This document shows, one piece after another, positions 21,255-28,731 of a stretch of DNA of 64,000 bases. The stretch lies in the NCBI RefSeq assembly GCF_004843725.1, contig NZ_CP039451.1, positions 122,501 to 186,500 of the forward strand, read 5' to 3'. A program made the translations under genes and the position numbers. Origin of the DNA: Psychroserpens sp. NJDZ02. Its GTDB lineage: Bacteria > Bacteroidota > Bacteroidia > Flavobacteriales > Flavobacteriaceae. How positions within the stretch are numbered: position 1 is the first letter of the stretch; every line of letters begins with the position of its first letter. Below the pieces are notes generated by a model. It was not told the DNA's origin and made no database searches. It saw nothing but the letters and a program-made list of their open reading frames with translations.

Positions 21255-21327
21255 GACTAGTTAGCTCAGTTGGTAGAGCATCTCCCTTTTAAGGAGAGGG
21301 TCCTGGGTTCGAGCCCCAGACTGGTCA
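21255..21327 (+). tRNA. tRNA-Lys (anticodon UUU), copy 1
   Basis: The 73-nt cloverleaf has acceptor stem GACTAGT/ACTGGTC, D-loop TAGCTCAGTTGGTAGAGC, anticodon stem-loop CTCCCTTTTAAGGAG with anticodon TTT, and T-arm GGGTTCGAGCCCC. CCA is not encoded. The acceptor stem has one U-G wobble (position 4) that copy 2 lacks. Confidence 0.97.
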
Positions 21328-21385
21328 CAATAAAATAATTAAGTAGTATTATTGGTTATTTTATCTTTTTACGAATACAAATATT

Positions 21386-21458
21386 GACCAGTTAGCTCAG
21401 TTGGTAGAGCATCTCCCTTTTAAGGAGAGGGTCCTGGGTTCGAGCCCCAGACTGGTCA
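21386..21458 (+). tRNA. tRNA-Lys (anticodon UUU), copy 2
   Basis: Identical to copy 1 except for C instead of T at the fourth base, which gives a fully paired acceptor stem GACCAGT/ACTGGTC. It lies 58 nt downstream and is followed by a terminator. Confidence 0.97.
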
Positions 21459-21460
21459 CT

Positions 21461-21493
21461 AAAAAAGTTAAGCAATCGCTTAACTTTTTTTTT
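21461..21493 (+). terminator. Terminator after tRNA-Lys pair
   Basis: AAAAAAGTTAAGC and GCTTAACTTTTTT form the stem, with a T run continuing. It separates the Lys pair from tRNA-Leu, although read-through may feed the Leu gene. Confidence 0.85.
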
Positions 21494-21510
21494 ATCTTTA
21501 TTTTAAATTA

Positions 21511-21596
21511 GCGCACGTGGCGGAATTGGTAGACGTGCTAGCTTGAGGGGCTAGTGATTACTTATAATCGTGGAAGTTCGAGTCTTCTCGTGCGCA
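21511..21596 (+). tRNA. tRNA-Leu (anticodon GAG)
   Basis: The 86-nt class II tRNA has acceptor GCGCACG/CGTGCGC, anticodon stem CTAGC/GCTAG with loop TTGAGGG (anticodon GAG), a long variable arm near 21555-21572 and T-arm AGTTCGAGTCT. CCA is not encoded. Confidence 0.96.
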
Positions 21597-21634
21597 CTTT
21601 TCCAAAATCTATTTTATAGTTAATTATTTCAAAA

Positions 21635-21672
21635 TGTTTAACCTTTTAGTGTCTAAACTCGTTTTGTTTAAC
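21635..21672 (+). promoter_or_regulatory. Three 15-bp-spaced direct repeats before the carotenoid operon (probable CarH-type operator)
   Basis: TGTTTAAC (21635), TGTCTAAA (21650) and TGTTTAAC (21665) recur with an exact 15-bp period. A TAATTTAG at 21673-21680, one mismatch from the Bacteroidota -7 element, follows immediately, and the regulator's ATG is at 21688. A repressor bound to these repeats would block this promoter. CarH-type regulators bind as tetramers to tandem direct repeats (known for the family); assigning this site is inference. Confidence 0.65.
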
Positions 21673-21687
21673 TAATTTAGCAAAATA

Positions 21688-22587
21688 ATGAACAATATTA
21701 AGTCAAAGTTTAGCATTAAAGACCTAGAAAATCTCTCGGGTATCAAAGCACATACCATAAGGATATGGGAAAAACGTTATAATTTATTTGAACCAAACAG
21801 AACAGAAACTAATATTAGATATTATAGTTTAGCAAGCCTTCAAAAGATCTTAAATATAAGCTACCTGAACGCTAATGGCTATAAAATATCCAAAATAGCG
21901 AATTTAAAAACAGAAGAAATACCTTCTTTAGTAAAAAAAATATCTGAAGATAGTGATAGTAAAAATCACGCTGTTAATATTTTTAAATTAGCGATGATCA
22001 ACTTTGATCAAACACTTTTCTACAACACGTTTAATGATTTAATAAGTGAATTTTCCTTCAAACACATTTTCTATAACATTTTAGTCCCTTTATTGGATGA
22101 CATAGGGATACTATGGCAAACAGATACAATCACTGCGGCACACGAACATTTTATAGTCGAATTAATAAAACGTAAAATTTTAATCAACATAGACCATGCG
22201 ATAAGTACTTCCAATGCTACTAATGATGATACCACATATGTTTTATTCCTACCTGACAATGAAGTGCACGAGTTAGGTTTGTTATATACAAACTACGAAA
22301 TTATAAATCAAGGCTCGCATACCATCTATTTAGGACAAAGTGTACCAATCGATAGTTTAAAGTTTTTATTATCTCAATATAAAAAGATAACGTTTATTTC
22401 CTGCTTTACAGTTAAACCGGAAAAAGACTATATAAATAAGTATTTAGCTGAGTTTAATAAAAAACTTTTAAATAACACTAATAATAATCTGATCATTTCT
22501 GGGCGAATGACCGCCTATATTGATTCTGAGGTAAACCCGAAAATAACTGCTTTCAATTCTACAAAAGATGTTATTGAAAGCTTCTAA
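21688..22587 (+). CDS. MerR-family regulator with B12-binding domain (CarH/LitR type photoreceptor candidate)
   Basis: The 299-aa protein has an N-terminal MerR helix-turn-helix (about 8-75; FSIKDLENLSGIKAHTIRIW), a four-helix light-sensing-type domain, and a Rossmann cobalamin-binding domain (about 183-299). CarH signatures are intact: W143-x9-E153-H154 (the upper face of adenosylcobalamin) and E192-x-H194-x-x-G197 (lower axial His). In known CarH proteins, dark adenosylcobalamin drives a DNA-binding tetramer and light breaks it, turning on carotenoid genes. It is the first gene of the crt operon (13 nt before crtI), so it probably represses its own operon in the dark. Confidence 0.9.
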   Translation: MNNIKSKFSIKDLENLSGIKAHTIRIWEKRYNLFEPNRTETNIRYYSLASLQKILNISYLNANGYKISKIANLKTEEIPSLVKKISEDSDSKNHAVNIFKLAMINFDQTLFYNTFNDLISEFSFKHIFYNILVPLLDDIGILWQTDTITAAHEHFIVELIKRKILINIDHAISTSNATNDDTTYVLFLPDNEVHELGLLYTNYEIINQGSHTIYLGQSVPIDSLKFLLSQYKKITFISCFTVKPEKDYINKYLAEFNKKLLNNTNNNLIISGRMTAYIDSEVNPKITAFNSTKDVIESF

Positions 22588-22600
22588 TTTATTTTAATTA

Positions 22601-24064
22601 ATGACTAAAAACATTGCAATTATTGGTTCCGGGTTTTCTGCTCTATCCGCCGCTTGCTATTTGGCTAAAGCAGGTCAAACAGTTACTGTTTTTGAAAAAA
22701 ATGAAACCGTAGGTGGGCGTTGTAGACAATTTAAAAAAGAAGGTTTTACGTTTGATATTGGACCAAGCTGGTATTGGATGCCTGATATATTTGATAAATT
22801 CTTTGCCGATTTTGGTAAAAAGACATCTGATTATTATCAATTGGATAAATTATCTCCAGCTTATAAAATCTTTTTTAAAGATGAAGAAATCACTATTGGA
22901 GATACGCTTGATAAAATCTGTATAGAATTTGAGCGCATTGAACCAGGTAGTTCTGTGCAACTTAAAAAATTTATAAAAAAAGCAGGAACAAATTATGATA
23001 TTGCTATTAATAAAGTCGTTTTAAAACCAGGAATTTCTCCTTTAGAATTGATTACTCCAGAAACAGCACTCCGGGTAGATCAATTTTTTAAAACTATTAG
23101 TAGTGATGTTAGAAAAAAATTCAAAAATCCAATGCTCATCTCTACTTTAGAGTTTCCTGTCTTGTTTTTAGGAGCCAAACCAAACAAAACGCCATCGTTC
23201 TATAATTTTATGAACTATGCCGATTTTGGTTTAGGCACTTGGCATCCAAAAGGCGGTATGTATGAAATAGTAAAAGCTATGAAAACCTTAGCAGAAACCT
23301 TAGGTGTAACATTCAAAACAAACAGTCCGATAACTAAAATTAACGTTACTAATAAAAAAGCAACATCCATAATTGTTAATAAACAAACGCTAGACTTTGA
23401 TGTTGTATTAAGCGGTGCAGATTACCACCATTCTGAAACACTTTTGGATCAGCAGCATAGACAATATTCAGAAAAATACTGGAGTAAGAAAACATTTGCC
23501 CCTTCCTCCCTATTATTCTACATCGGATTTGACAAAAAGTTAAACAACATTCAACATCATAATTTGTTTTTTGATACCAATTTTGAAACCCATGCTGAAG
23601 AAATATATGATAACCCAAAATGGCCAACAGATCCATTATTTTATGCTAATTTTCCTTCGACAACAGATAGCAGTATGTCACCAGAAAATTGTGAAACAGG
23701 CTTTTTTCTAATACCTATTGCACCAGGTATCGCGGACACACCAAAATTAAGAGCACACTATTTTAACATTATTTTAGAACGCTTTGAAAAATTAACAAAA
23801 CAAGATGTTAAAAATAATATTATCTTTAAAGAGTCTTTTTGTGTGAGAGATTTTATAAAAGACTACAACTCGTACAAAGGAAATGCATACGGAATGGCTA
23901 ACACACTACTACAGACTGCATTTTTAAGACCAAAACTAAAAAGTAAAAAAGTAAATAATTTATATTTTACAGGACAACTAACTGTACCAGGTCCAGGCGT
24001 GCCACCAGCACTTATTTCTGGAAAACTAGTCGCAGAATTAATTAACAAACACCATAATAATTAA
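22601..24064 (+). CDS. crtI: Phytoene desaturase
   Basis: FAD-dependent enzyme of 487 aa that converts colourless phytoene to lycopene. The N-terminal dinucleotide motif is IAIIGSGFSALSAACYLAKA, followed by GGRCRQ and the DIGPSWYWMPDIF segment. The C-terminal FAD/membrane signature is LYFTGQLTVPGPGVPPALIS. It follows the regulator after 13 nt and ends 1 nt before crtB. Confidence 0.95.
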   Translation: MTKNIAIIGSGFSALSAACYLAKAGQTVTVFEKNETVGGRCRQFKKEGFTFDIGPSWYWMPDIFDKFFADFGKKTSDYYQLDKLSPAYKIFFKDEEITIGDTLDKICIEFERIEPGSSVQLKKFIKKAGTNYDIAINKVVLKPGISPLELITPETALRVDQFFKTISSDVRKKFKNPMLISTLEFPVLFLGAKPNKTPSFYNFMNYADFGLGTWHPKGGMYEIVKAMKTLAETLGVTFKTNSPITKINVTNKKATSIIVNKQTLDFDVVLSGADYHHSETLLDQQHRQYSEKYWSKKTFAPSSLLFYIGFDKKLNNIQHHNLFFDTNFETHAEEIYDNPKWPTDPLFYANFPSTTDSSMSPENCETGFFLIPIAPGIADTPKLRAHYFNIILERFEKLTKQDVKNNIIFKESFCVRDFIKDYNSYKGNAYGMANTLLQTAFLRPKLKSKKVNNLYFTGQLTVPGPGVPPALISGKLVAELINKHHNN

Positions 24065-24065
24065 A

Positions 24066-24905
24066 ATGAAATCATTATTCGACGCTGTTTCCTACGATTG
24101 TAGCAAAGTGGTTACTACCTCTTATAGTACTTCATTTTCACTAGCAACAAAAATGTTGTCCCAGACAATAAGACAAGATATTTATAATATCTATGGCTTT
24201 GTTCGCTTTGCAGACGAGATTGTAGACACTTTCCACGACTATAATAAACAGGATTTATTTGATCGTTTTGAAAATGACCTAGAATTAGCATTACAAGAAA
24301 AGATAAGCTTAAACCCTATTCTAAATGCCTTTCAGCACACATATCACAAATGCAATATAGATAAGCATATGGTGGAATCGTTTATGAAAAGCATGCGTTT
24401 AGACCTGTCCAAAACTAAATATACAACAGATCAAGAATACAAAGATTATATCTATGGATCTGCTGATGTTGTTGGCTTAATGTGCTTAAAAGTTTTTGTA
24501 AAAGGTGATAGCGAAAAATACGAATCGCTTAAAAGTACAGCAATGTCATTAGGGTCTGCTTTTCAAAAAGTGAATTTTTTAAGAGACTTAAAGGCTGACC
24601 ATGAATTATTGGACAGAACCTATTTTCCTAATACCGATTTAACTAATTTAACAGAAGAAGATAAATTGTTTATTATTCAGGATATCGAAAGTGATTTTGA
24701 AGAAGGTTTAAAAGGAATCAAACAATTACCAATCGAAGCTAAATTTGGTGTATTCATGGCTTACCGCTACTACAACCAACTATTAAAAAAATTAAAGAAA
24801 ACACCAGCTTTAGAAATAAAAAACACACGTATTAGAGTCCCTAATTACAAAAAGGCCGAACTTCTAACACGTAGTTATGTAAAATACCAACTCAATTTAT
24901 TATAA
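24066..24905 (+). CDS. crtB: Phytoene synthase
   Basis: Joins two geranylgeranyl diphosphates to phytoene; 279 aa. Two Mg-binding acidic motifs are visible, DEIVD in FVRFADEIVDTFHDY and DLKAD in NFLRDLKADHE. The N-terminal SYSTSFSLAT segment is also typical. It is tightly packed between crtI and crtZ (1 and 2 nt gaps). Confidence 0.95.
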   Translation: MKSLFDAVSYDCSKVVTTSYSTSFSLATKMLSQTIRQDIYNIYGFVRFADEIVDTFHDYNKQDLFDRFENDLELALQEKISLNPILNAFQHTYHKCNIDKHMVESFMKSMRLDLSKTKYTTDQEYKDYIYGSADVVGLMCLKVFVKGDSEKYESLKSTAMSLGSAFQKVNFLRDLKADHELLDRTYFPNTDLTNLTEEDKLFIIQDIESDFEEGLKGIKQLPIEAKFGVFMAYRYYNQLLKKLKKTPALEIKNTRIRVPNYKKAELLTRSYVKYQLNLL

Positions 24906-24907
24906 TA

Positions 24908-25357
24908 ATGCAAACAGTATATTGGATATTAGTTTTTTTAGGAACCTTTTCTACAATGGAATTTATGGCGTGGTTTACACACAAATATGTCATGCATGGT
25001 TTTTTATGGAGCTTACACAAGGATCACCATCACAAAGATCACGACAGTTGGTTTGAGCGTAATGATGCCTTTTTTATATTTTATGCCATCGTTAGTATGA
25101 CGTGTTTTTACCTTTGGAGTTATGAAGGCGTATGGTATTGCCTACCCATAGGTCTTGGTATTATGGCCTACGGTGCCGCTTACTTTTTAGTACATGACAT
25201 TTTTATACACCAACGTTTTAAGTTATTTAGAAACGCAAATAACACCTACGCTAAAGGGGTCCGTCGTGCTCATAAAATGCATCACAAGCATTTAGGAAAA
25301 GGAGATGGCGAATGCTTCGGGATGCTTTTTGTTCCCTTTAAATATTTTAAAAAGTAA
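24908..25357 (+). CDS. crtZ: Beta-carotene hydroxylase
   Basis: The 149-aa membrane di-iron hydroxylase adds 3-OH groups to beta-carotene, giving zeaxanthin. The four His clusters are HKYVMH, HKDHHHKDH, HDIFIH and HKMHHKH. Hydrophobic helices flank them. It lies between crtB and crtY (2 and 12 nt gaps). Confidence 0.94.
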   Translation: MQTVYWILVFLGTFSTMEFMAWFTHKYVMHGFLWSLHKDHHHKDHDSWFERNDAFFIFYAIVSMTCFYLWSYEGVWYCLPIGLGIMAYGAAYFLVHDIFIHQRFKLFRNANNTYAKGVRRAHKMHHKHLGKGDGECFGMLFVPFKYFKK

Positions 25358-25369
25358 GCTACAAATTAC

Positions 25370-26512
25370 ATGCATAAACCCCATTATGATTACATAATAG
25401 TTGGTAATGGATTAGCAGGGCTACAACTAGCTTTAGCATTAGGGAAAGATGACTTTTTTAATGATAAACAAATAGCTCTAATAGATCCTTCTACAAAGTC
25501 TAACAATGACAAAACGTGGAGTTTTTGGGAAACAGAAGATAGCACTTGGGACAAATTAGCCTATAAAACTTGGCAAAAAGCTACTATTTATAGTTCAAAA
25601 AAAGAAATTAAGCTAAACCTAGATCCTTATACTTATAAAAGTATACGTGCCTTAGATTTTTATAATTATACCAAAGATAATTTAAAACAAAGTGATAACA
25701 TTCACTTAATAAAAGACACCGTTACAAAAGTATCAGAACAAAACATGGTTACAGTAACCACAAAAACTAATAGTTATACTGCTACTCATGTTTTTGATAG
25801 TAGAATCACACCAGATTTTACAACTCAAAACAAAAAATACACCACATTATTACAACACTTTAAAGGTTGGATTATAAAAACAGAACAACCCGTATTTGAT
25901 GATACACAGATAACAATGATGGACTACCGTTTAAAAGACGGAAATCAAACCACGTTTATGTATGTGTTGCCCTTTTCTAAGACTGAAGCTTTAGTAGAAT
26001 TTACCTATTTTACAGAAAACACTGTTAACGCCTCGACTTACGATAGTTATATCAAACAATACATTTCTGATTATTTAAAAATTAAAAACTACACCATATC
26101 AGAAACTGAATCTGGTGTCATACCAATGACAACATTTCCATTTAGCAACAACAACACCTACAACATTACTAAAATAGGCACTGCTGGAGGTTGGGTAAAA
26201 CCGTCTACAGGTTATTCTTTTAAACATACTCAGAAAAAAGTAACTAAGATTGTTGCCAATTTAAAAACCAACCAGCCACCTTCTAAAAATCTATTTATAT
26301 CAAAATATAAATTCTATGATAAAATATTTTTAAAGGTTTTAAAAGACGAAAATTATAAAGGTGAATGGATTTTTGAGCAATACTATAGTAAAAACAATGT
26401 AAATACAATGTTTCGCTTTTTAGATGAAGAATCTACTTTTATCGAAGACATAAAAATTATGTGGTCTTTATTCAGCTTTAGCTTTATAAAAGCTTTTTTT
26501 AAAACGCTATAA
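25370..26512 (+). CDS. crtY: Lycopene beta-cyclase
   Basis: Flavoprotein of the CrtY/CrtL type, 380 aa, that closes both ends of lycopene to beta-carotene. The N-terminal dinucleotide motif is YIIVGNGLAGLQLALAL. The KTWSFWE segment and the C-terminal AGGWVKPSTGYSF motif are conserved in the family. With crtI, crtB and crtZ it completes a route from GGPP to zeaxanthin. A GGPP synthase is not in the window. Confidence 0.93.
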   Translation: MHKPHYDYIIVGNGLAGLQLALALGKDDFFNDKQIALIDPSTKSNNDKTWSFWETEDSTWDKLAYKTWQKATIYSSKKEIKLNLDPYTYKSIRALDFYNYTKDNLKQSDNIHLIKDTVTKVSEQNMVTVTTKTNSYTATHVFDSRITPDFTTQNKKYTTLLQHFKGWIIKTEQPVFDDTQITMMDYRLKDGNQTTFMYVLPFSKTEALVEFTYFTENTVNASTYDSYIKQYISDYLKIKNYTISETESGVIPMTTFPFSNNNTYNITKIGTAGGWVKPSTGYSFKHTQKKVTKIVANLKTNQPPSKNLFISKYKFYDKIFLKVLKDENYKGEWIFEQYYSKNNVNTMFRFLDEESTFIEDIKIMWSLFSFSFIKAFFKTL

Positions 26513-26529
26513 ACGCGTATATTTATCTG

Positions 26530-28731
26530 ATGAAAAACATCATCTATTCCCTTCTTATCACACTTCTAGTATCCAACTGTAAAAAAGCTATCAATCGTGA
26601 CATTATATACAATCCTCCAAAAATAGAAAGTCAGCTAGTTAGTGATGTTTACTTTGGGACCACAATAGACGATCCTTATAGAAACATTGAAAACACCAAA
26701 GACAGCACTGTTTTAAAGTGGTATAAATCTCAAACAGAATACACCAATAGCTTTATTGAAAACATAAATAATAGAACCTCTTTTATAGATAACACTTACG
26801 AGATCGATAATAGAAAATCTTATTATATAAAAAAGCATCACCTGACAGAAAATGACAATCGTTTTTATTTAAAGAAAAACATTGGAGAAGACTATTACAA
26901 ATTATATTTCAAAGCTGTTAACGACTCAAGTGAAACACTATTATTTAATCCAAAAGAGTATAAAACAAATACTAAAAACGATTATATAATTAACTATATA
27001 AAACCAAGTTGGGATGAAAAGCATGTCGTGGTATCATTATCCTATTCAGGAAAAGAATTATCAGAATTAATTATAATTGATACTAAAACACAAAAACAGC
27101 ACTCACAAATATTAGACAATGCTTGGCCAAACTCATTTTTAGGGATAAACTGGTTACCAGACAATAGCGGGTTTACTTATTTATATTTAACCAATCCAGA
27201 TCCTAACAGCAGCAATTTTAAAAACAATAGTCAATCTGTATTATACACTTTAGGTCAAGATCCAAAAAAATTAAATTTTATATTTGGTAATACAACTCAC
27301 CCTGCATTTAATATTATAAAAAGTGAATATCCATTAACAAAAATAAATGGAGCTAGTGATAAATATATAATTGGTTACCTCGCTGGAGTAGATAATTTTT
27401 GGGGCACTTATTATGCAAAAATCGAAGACCTTAAAAAAGGTCATTTAAATTGGAAGCTACTGTATACAAAAGAAGATAAAGTTAAAACTAATAAAGGTAT
27501 TATTGTTAAAGACCAATTTATATTTATGTCTGGCTCAAATGCTGATAACTTCAAATTAGCTTCTATAAATTTAAATACTTTGAATTTTAAAAATCCACAA
27601 ATTATTTTTGAAGAAAAGAAAGATGAAGTAATAACCTCCTTTAGGATTAACAATAATGCTATCTATCTAACGACAAGTAAATACGGCATTGAAGCATTCC
27701 TCTATCAAATAAAAGATGGAGAAACTAAACAAATTAAATTACCTAAAAAAGCTGGAACCATAAGTATAAGCCATAAATCTATTAATTATGATGATTTATG
27801 GGTTTCTATTAGTGGATGGACAAGCTCTAATGAGCGTTATAAATATAATTCTATAACAAATAAATTTACAGAAGACTACTTAACAGATAAAGTAGAATAT
27901 CCTGAATTTAAAAATATAATCATTGAAGAAATTAGTATTCCTTCACACGATGGGGCTTTAGTACCTATTTCTATTATTTATAATAAAGATATAGAAAGAA
28001 ATAGTAATAATCCTTCATTCTTTTATGGTTATGGCGCGTATGGAGATGGCATCAATCCATTTTTCTCACCAACCTTTTTATACTACGTACAAGAAGGTGG
28101 TGTTCTATGCATACCCCATGTTAGAGGAGGAGGAGAAAAAGGTGAAGAATGGAGAAAAGGTGGTTTTAAAAAGACTAAGCCAAACACATGGAAAGATCTA
28201 ATAGCTGCTGTTGAATATCTTATTGATAATAAGTACACTTCCAAAAACAAGACTGCGATTTATAGTAGTAGTGCCGGAGGAATAATGGTTGGAAGAGCAA
28301 TGACAGAGCGTCCAGATTTATTTGCGGCTGTAATATCTGAAGTTGGTGAATTAAATCCTATTAGAACGGAAGTTCAACCAGGAGCAGGCGGTTCTAATAT
28401 TAGGGAATTTGGTAATGTAAAAGATTCTACCGAATGTATGGCTTTACTAGAAATGGATGCGTATCTACATATAAAAGATAGCACAAATTATCCAGCAACT
28501 TATTTAACCGTTGGAATGAACGACCCTAGAGTTGTCCCTTGGGAAAGCGGAAAATTTGCTGCAAGACTACAAAATACTAACCTATTAACAAAACCGGTGT
28601 TTTTATATGCCGATTTTGAGTCAGGACATAGCGGTAGTTATGGTAAAAAGTCATATGAAGAATGGGGGAATGTTTTAACTTTTGCTCTTTGGCAAACAGG
28701 TCATCCCAAGTATCAACTTAAAAAAGATTAA
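26530..28731 (+). CDS. Prolyl oligopeptidase family serine peptidase, lipoprotein
   Basis: The 733-aa S9A-type peptidase has an N-terminal beta-propeller and a C-terminal alpha/beta-hydrolase. A lipobox LLVSNC near residue 17 suggests a lipid-anchored exported form. Candidate catalytic residues are S581 in YSSSAGGIM, D665 in MNDPRVVP and H700 in ESGHSGS. The usual nucleophile elbow GGSNGG is changed to SSSAGG. It follows crtY by 17 nt on the same strand and may share the light-controlled operon, with no obvious link to carotenoids. Its stop overlaps the convergent thioredoxin-like gene. Confidence 0.87.
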   Translation: MKNIIYSLLITLLVSNCKKAINRDIIYNPPKIESQLVSDVYFGTTIDDPYRNIENTKDSTVLKWYKSQTEYTNSFIENINNRTSFIDNTYEIDNRKSYYIKKHHLTENDNRFYLKKNIGEDYYKLYFKAVNDSSETLLFNPKEYKTNTKNDYIINYIKPSWDEKHVVVSLSYSGKELSELIIIDTKTQKQHSQILDNAWPNSFLGINWLPDNSGFTYLYLTNPDPNSSNFKNNSQSVLYTLGQDPKKLNFIFGNTTHPAFNIIKSEYPLTKINGASDKYIIGYLAGVDNFWGTYYAKIEDLKKGHLNWKLLYTKEDKVKTNKGIIVKDQFIFMSGSNADNFKLASINLNTLNFKNPQIIFEEKKDEVITSFRINNNAIYLTTSKYGIEAFLYQIKDGETKQIKLPKKAGTISISHKSINYDDLWVSISGWTSSNERYKYNSITNKFTEDYLTDKVEYPEFKNIIIEEISIPSHDGALVPISIIYNKDIERNSNNPSFFYGYGAYGDGINPFFSPTFLYYVQEGGVLCIPHVRGGGEKGEEWRKGGFKKTKPNTWKDLIAAVEYLIDNKYTSKNKTAIYSSSAGGIMVGRAMTERPDLFAAVISEVGELNPIRTEVQPGAGGSNIREFGNVKDSTECMALLEMDAYLHIKDSTNYPATYLTVGMNDPRVVPWESGKFAARLQNTNLLTKPVFLYADFESGHSGSYGKKSYEEWGNVLTFALWQTGHPKYQLKKD

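Follow-up and report, generated by a model that had tools for sequence, protein, structure and literature searches.

Which signal controls carotenoid formation in the flavobacterium Psychroserpens sp. NJDZ02? The stretch of its genome analyzed here (the window, 64,000 nucleotides (nt)) carries the genes merR, crtI, crtB, crtZ and crtY, which follow each other on the forward strand with gaps of 13, 1, 2 and 12 nt, as described in the initial annotation. There, the MerR protein had been taken for a photoreceptor of the CarH type. We consider it probable (about 0.68) that a CarH-type repressor controls merR-crtIBZY by adenosylcobalamin (AdoCbl) and light from an operator at its own promoter. Residues, operon and operator conservation are seen directly in the sequences and are complemented by a fold model.

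Predicted ligand residues and fold of the regulator

All six residues that had been proposed to hold the cofactor, arranged as W143-x9-E153-H154 and E192-x-H194-x2-G197, were confirmed in the MerR protein. Together with G140 they fall within the 23 columns that are invariant among 111 homologues across residues 95-299 (P 9e-8 by hypergeometric test for the seven checked positions, only indicative as the homologues are related). In the literature numbering of TtCarH from Thermus thermophilus (reference sequence from a Thermus plasmid), G128, W131, E141, H142, E175, H177 and G180 are retained in 111/111 main-clade proteins, and the adenosyl-cap motif Wx9EH is present in 111/111 homologues. The B12 motif played no part in the selection: 80 named loci were chosen via two peptide patterns of the DNA-binding domain, the others via full-length similarity. 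The lower-ligand motif D/ExHx2G/P is matched as E192-V-H194-E-L-G197, and GxxW, EH and GxxxP of the SignatureFinder signature are present, with N191-E-V-H at the GxxH position.

Pfam matches of the regulator comprise MerR_1, MerR and B12-binding_2 (PF02607), with an E value of 2.3e-14 for the MerR head (PF13411); the Rossmann model PF02310 is absent from them. In the structure model the B12 domain matches the CarH fold, with the strands and helices of residues 182-298 aligning to TtCarH. The DNA-binding head exhibits RIWEKRY at residues 25-31, compared to RxWERRY in CarH and class I LitR, Lys replacing one Arg. The nearest named homologues belong to the flavobacterium Olleya.

A predicted operator at the merR promoter

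The predicted operator is an inverted repeat with a spacing of 18 (Table 1) and the sole exact match in the window as well as in the whole 4.32-Mb single-contig genome. It overlaps a -7 element, the consensus of which was taken from PMC2483708 (papers are cited by PMC number, for the excerpts at hand). This element starts 29 nt upstream of the ATG in 102/112 loci, and upstream conservation (95 loci) is low apart from TAnnTTTGTTTAAC and a few bases ahead of the ATG. The fixed distance is due to the second half-site, which occupies the gene start (TGTTTA-N18-TGAACA). Codon 2 encodes Asn in 124 of the 140 distinct regions and is AAC in 122 of these, whereas AAC makes up 32% (1027/3177) of the Asn codons in the remainder of the gene. 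Where codon 3 specifies Asn, AAT is used 94 times and AAC 35 times. Further upstream, the TGTTT of the candidate -33 region terminates the block TGTTAATTATTTCAAAATGTTT, most of which is conserved when 10 members of the genus are aligned.

The spacing of 18 is observed in 135/140 distinct regions with the relaxed pattern and in 118/140 with the strict one. The five regions in which even the relaxed pattern lacks this spacing are L017, L021, L094, L182 and L193, L094 being the one named locus without adjacent crt genes. Left out were L141, L142 and L168, in which tblastn detected no regulator, identical sequences or regions, loci with fewer than 60 upstream bases and, from the operator count, L123, which is cut ahead of its start. 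Within the 988,339 bases scanned around the 80 loci, the strict pattern occurred at the merR promoter 72 times with N18 and twice with N19, in the merR-crtI gap 24 and 5 times, respectively, and elsewhere in two places only (L093, L101), both with N18 and ahead of similar genes. At spacings of 8-17 or 20-30 it was not found in these bases.

A related MerR clade (L124-L140) retains the W and EH motifs and is mostly not located directly ahead of crtI. Its members show the relaxed N18 repeat in 14/17 cases, mostly with TGTC-type halves, the loose pattern fitting N19 as well in 11/17. L124 and L125, with crtI directly behind, possess TGTTTA halves and share the recognition-helix consensus HTIRIWEKRY of the main clade, while the consensus in the rest of L124-L140 is HTLRKWESRY. 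That helix and half-site types differ together supports the view that these proteins read the site. As the half-site core equals the TnnACA of CarH, DNA recognition looks inherited. The inverted halves, 24 bp core to core, suggest a head-to-head dimer, unlike the TtCarH tetramer on tandem repeats.

In homologues from outside the family, E141, H142, H177 and W or its place are kept in 22/25, the N18 repeat occurs in 3/25, and TGTTTAA/TTAAACA is mildly enriched upstream (7/25 loci; shuffle mean 1.9, maximum 7). A possible CarH-like tandem operator in the window, TGTTTA/TGTCTA/TGTTTA with direct repeats 15 nt apart, was dropped, as most sister genomes do not preserve the middle repeat. Sigma-70-type promoters gave no clear enrichment (30 vs 25.3 expected, standard deviation 5.1). 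Searching the own genome for TAnnTTTGTTTAAC yielded 5 matches, the same number as the reversed control (2+3); one was situated 43 nt ahead of a 128-aa open reading frame, none ahead of a recognized light-related gene.

Cobalamin supply

An adenosyltransferase (PF01923, E 1.6e-59) is encoded in the own genome, where the PF02572 type was not detected. Three PF02310 proteins with open frames of 895, 714 and 1164 aa are also found, which by their lengths may be methionine synthase and two mutases. Across the family, PF01923 occurs in 232/249 genomes: in 199/203 of those with the regulator (distant clade included) versus 33/46 without, and, among genomes at least 90% complete, in 183/185 versus 18/25 (both Fisher-tested).

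Proposed mechanism and its weighing

We infer that the protein binds cobalamin, sits on the DNA as a dimer, acts as a repressor and is released by light, and that zeaxanthin is the product. In the dark, the repressor would carry AdoCbl, held by W143, E153 and H154 from above and H194 from below, and two of its DNA-binding heads would occupy the inverted repeat. Transcription would start near 21670, judged from the -7 element. Since the operator spans this element, the expected start site and the merR start codon, the bound repressor would block the promoter and limit its own synthesis. Light would break the Co−C bond and release the protein, so that the carotenoid genes would be expressed along with the repressor. 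A bis-His cobalamin light state as in TtCarH is impossible via residue 132, which is Gln; release would instead follow the loss of the adenosyl group, with a different ligand. The original proposal is partly supported: residues, fold, adenosyltransferase and operator speak for the CarH-like identity, the operon and the self-repression. The His132, the dimer pair and the tandem operator of TtCarH are not found here.

Several observations set the regulator apart from TtCarH or weigh against this mechanism. The NCBIfam equivalog model for CarH, NF052513, is matched with E 2.7e-16 but 59.7 bits, short of the cut-off of 400, and identity to TtCarH is 23% (tblastn) or 16% (structural alignment). His132, the upper ligand of the TtCarH light state, corresponds to Gln144, with Gln in 111/111 homologues and His in 0/25 outside the family. 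The dimer pair Arg176-Asp201 is replaced by Val193-Ser218; in the 111 main-clade proteins these positions hold Ile/Val/Met and Ser/Thr/Asn, respectively. In the GG motif for the B12 tail the first Gly is Ser here and Gly in 0/111, the second being retained in 109/111. The Ser column of SxT/V falls on S238 or C239 depending on the alignment, which is not decisive because TtCarH itself has SAL. Instead of three tandem 11-bp repeats as in TtCarH an inverted repeat with N18 is present; the CarH tandem operator nnnnTnnACAn was not found, and TGTnnA at 11-bp tandem spacing (gap 5) occurs in 5/145 regions. The own genome contains the crt site only and shows no wider regulon, co-regulated genes being predicted from relatives. 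Neither PF01923 nor PF02572 was detected in four genomes with the regulator (G008, G048, G062, G064). Of these, G008 and G062 possess mutase-sized PF02310 proteins and G064 does not; the latter, 99% complete, has one PF02310 protein along with an intact regulator motif.

Literature data point partly in the same direction. The H132A variant of TtCarH is described as mostly tetrameric in light, an earlier report of disassembly being noted there (PMC10442372). Light induction in Chryseobacterium lacus is reported without a known sensor and without car/lit genes (PMC7064467). In Flavobacterium JSWR-1, which may or may not carry the regulator, zeaxanthin after 72 and 120 h amounted to 285 and 373 µg/g in the dark versus 337 and 443 µg/g under white light in a medium with glucose and yeast extract, and was lowest under green light with 145 µg/g (PMC11016774). 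This minimum weighs against CarH, since green is the color CarH should answer to. Conversely, His132 is not strictly family-defining, as CtMerR of Chloracidobacterium carries Arg and SasPcob Gln (PMC11796333). The latter, a photocobilin that also binds bilin, is nevertheless light-responsive according to this source, which makes light sensing plausible here as well.

The changes at position 132, the salt bridge and the GG glycine leave the ligand residues but not the light output of TtCarH. They would therefore also suit a regulator that mainly senses B12 supply, with crt repressed at ample AdoCbl and released upon shortage, light being secondary. Co-occurrence with the adenosyltransferase as well as the weak light effect and low green-light value in JSWR-1 agree with such a role. 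We nonetheless regard it as unlikely, because the adenosyl-contacting Trp and Glu-His are invariant, some predicted partners are light-related (rhodopsin, blh, crtW), and light induction is reported secondhand (PMC13377669). A little less likely still is a repressor that, like CarA or class II LitR, works without B12 and lets go in response to a partner protein or some other signal, its B12 pocket being a relic. The degenerate tail-binding motif, the missing adenosyltransferase in G064 and the loss of H142 in two distant crt-linked homologues, which indicates that B12-free versions may exist, speak for it. Myxobacterial CarA indeed resembles the present system by its MerR head, its B12 motif and a dimer at a promoter with inverted repeats, but lacks the Trp of Wx9EH (PMC9304148), present here as W143. 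Class II LitR is described without one of the two B12 subdomains, the Rossmann half (PMC9758184), whereas the model contains both. A MerR-type activator, as most members of that family are (PMC9478572), is very improbable, even with a -7-like element 15 or 16 nt into the repeat and between the half-sites at several sites (4/5 crtI, crtW, mevalonate-kinase-like, 1/3 rhodopsin and 12/36 fasciclin pairings), because at merR the left half-site shares bases with the -7 element and the right one falls in coding sequence past the expected transcription start, where occlusion is simpler. MliR of Bizionia was rejected as a counterpart, as it has no effector domain (PMC9478572).

Occurrence in Flavobacteriaceae

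The AdoCbl-dependent repressor had been presented as a switch of one organism. Instead, regulator matches occurred in 205/249 family genomes, 17 of them having only a distant homologue (E roughly 1e-41 to 1e-49) and two others (G149, G239) only a weak partial match. Directly behind the regulator crtI is found in 79/80 named loci, and crtI, crtB and crtZ follow in order in 77/80; L055 and L070 are clipped by contig ends, and L094 has none of the four crt genes. The merR-crtI gap contains the strict operator in 0/30 loci when shorter than 30 nt, compared to 24/49 when at least 30 nt, where a -7-like element is seen in 40/49. With its short gap the present locus thus follows the one-promoter design, a single operator serving sensor and enzymes. 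Here the regulator runs into crtI, whereas in L032, the locus compared for TtCarH, carH and the phytoene synthase gene diverge. The crt cluster of Nonlabens spongiae likewise begins with a MerR gene, behind which crt genes follow, but makes myxol (PMC11855829). Among the open-licence papers searched, none was seen to describe a B12 regulator acting on carotenoid genes in flavobacteria.

Among 9 more distant crt-linked homologues, His at position 132 occurs in 2/9. L116 and L118 have Ser or Arg for H142, L116 also Ser for G180, and are natural candidates for B12-free regulators; L118 retains the N18 repeat.

Exact operator sites numbered 132 in 35 genomes, versus 14 for the reversed pattern. 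We read 79 unique sites in 30/35 genomes (19 with listed places, 11 with one locus each). Fasciclin genes account for 18 sites in 13 genomes, mnmA, divergent from fasciclin, for 10 sites in 8 genomes, merR for 12, crtI for 5 and htpG for 4 sites, msrA and a TetR-type gene for 2 each, and blh and rhodopsin for 3 sites in 2 genomes. Seven sites belong to a protein without Pfam match, which we presume to be SRPBCC-like. Single sites lie at crtW, mevalonate-kinase-like, PTPS, ferritin-like, SDR, flavin-reductase-like and amine-oxidase-like genes, and 21/79 sites lie outside all gene families tested. The names CrtW and mevalonate kinase are best NCBIfam matches below cut-off, whereas Blh is above its cut-off. 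Genes such as htpG, mnmA and fasciclin are not plainly light-related, and in G123, with nine sites, a TetR-type gene is the only one recognized. Most telling is the operator between divergent blh and rhodopsin genes (L235/L288, the same place, and L275), found in two genomes, twice in one.

Judged from these sequences, the initial annotation is mostly right, the regulator representing a family-wide CarH variant with a well-supported predicted operator rather than a lone case; control by B12 and light is probable. Going further, we tentatively propose, with somewhat less than even chances, a family-wide B12 light regulon. It would comprise a separate CarH branch without bis-His state, acting as a dimer on the palindrome TTGTTYA-N18-TRAACAA, with one half-site, in the main clade, fixed in the start-codon region of the regulator and some relatives linking their genes for carotenoids, retinal and proteorhodopsin with light and B12. 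With a defined operator, many species are open to a direct test of the question, and the natural Gln-132 family tests whether the bis-His step of TtCarH is essential. Should the blh-rhodopsin sites be functional, a single switch would tie together light, B12 supply and rhodopsin phototrophy in those bacteria.

Operators ahead of fasciclin-type lipoprotein genes divergent from mnmA were observed in L221/L255 (the same place), L238, L248, L278, L286, L290 and L292, as two successive sites in L221/L255 and L278. The two strict sites away from merR and crtI (L093, L101) are full operators at the promoter of a Flavobacterium gene that lies within a few kb of crt; in L093 (222-1676) it carries a CHRD domain.

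Operon products and neighboring genes

Features of the locus are summarized in Table 1. With 720 bits, CrtI exceeds the cut-off (640) of an NCBIfam model that describes a bifunctional phytoene/3,4-desaturase, which makes zeaxanthin the likely rather than certain product of the operon; crt products beyond zeaxanthin are possible. CrtZ is without NCBIfam match.

Table 1. Promoter, operator and genes of the merR-crtIBZY locus (window positions).
Feature	Position	Strand	Remarks
Candidate -33 region TGTTT	21635..21639	+	weak, putative role; 19 nt before -7 element
-7 promoter element TCGTTTTG	21659..21666	+	consensus TAnnTTTG, second base deviates
Operator TTGTTTA-N18-TGAACAA, whole inverted repeat	21664..21695	.	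predicted
Left operator half-site TTGTTTA	21664..21670	+	
Right operator half-site TGAACAA	21689..21695	+	within merR codons 1-3
merR, CarH-like MerR regulator, 299 aa	21688..22587	+	
crtI, phytoene desaturase family	22601..24064	+	NF058655 CrtID over cut-off
crtB, phytoene synthase family	24066..24905	+	PF00494
crtZ, carotene hydroxylase (FA_hydroxylase family)	24908..25357	+	PF04116; crtZ name from context
crtY, lycopene cyclase	25370..26512	+	PF05834

Beginning 18 nt past the end of crtY, a Peptidase_S9 (prolyl oligopeptidase family) gene extends from 26530 to 28731 on the same strand and may be part of the crt transcript. Directly upstream of the operon, two tRNA-Lys (ttt) genes and one tRNA-Leu (gag) gene are located at 21255-21597; several relatives likewise have a tRNA-Leu-like end ahead of merR. 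At positions 1-957 the window edge clips a minus-strand 16S rRNA gene, of which the 5' part is included.
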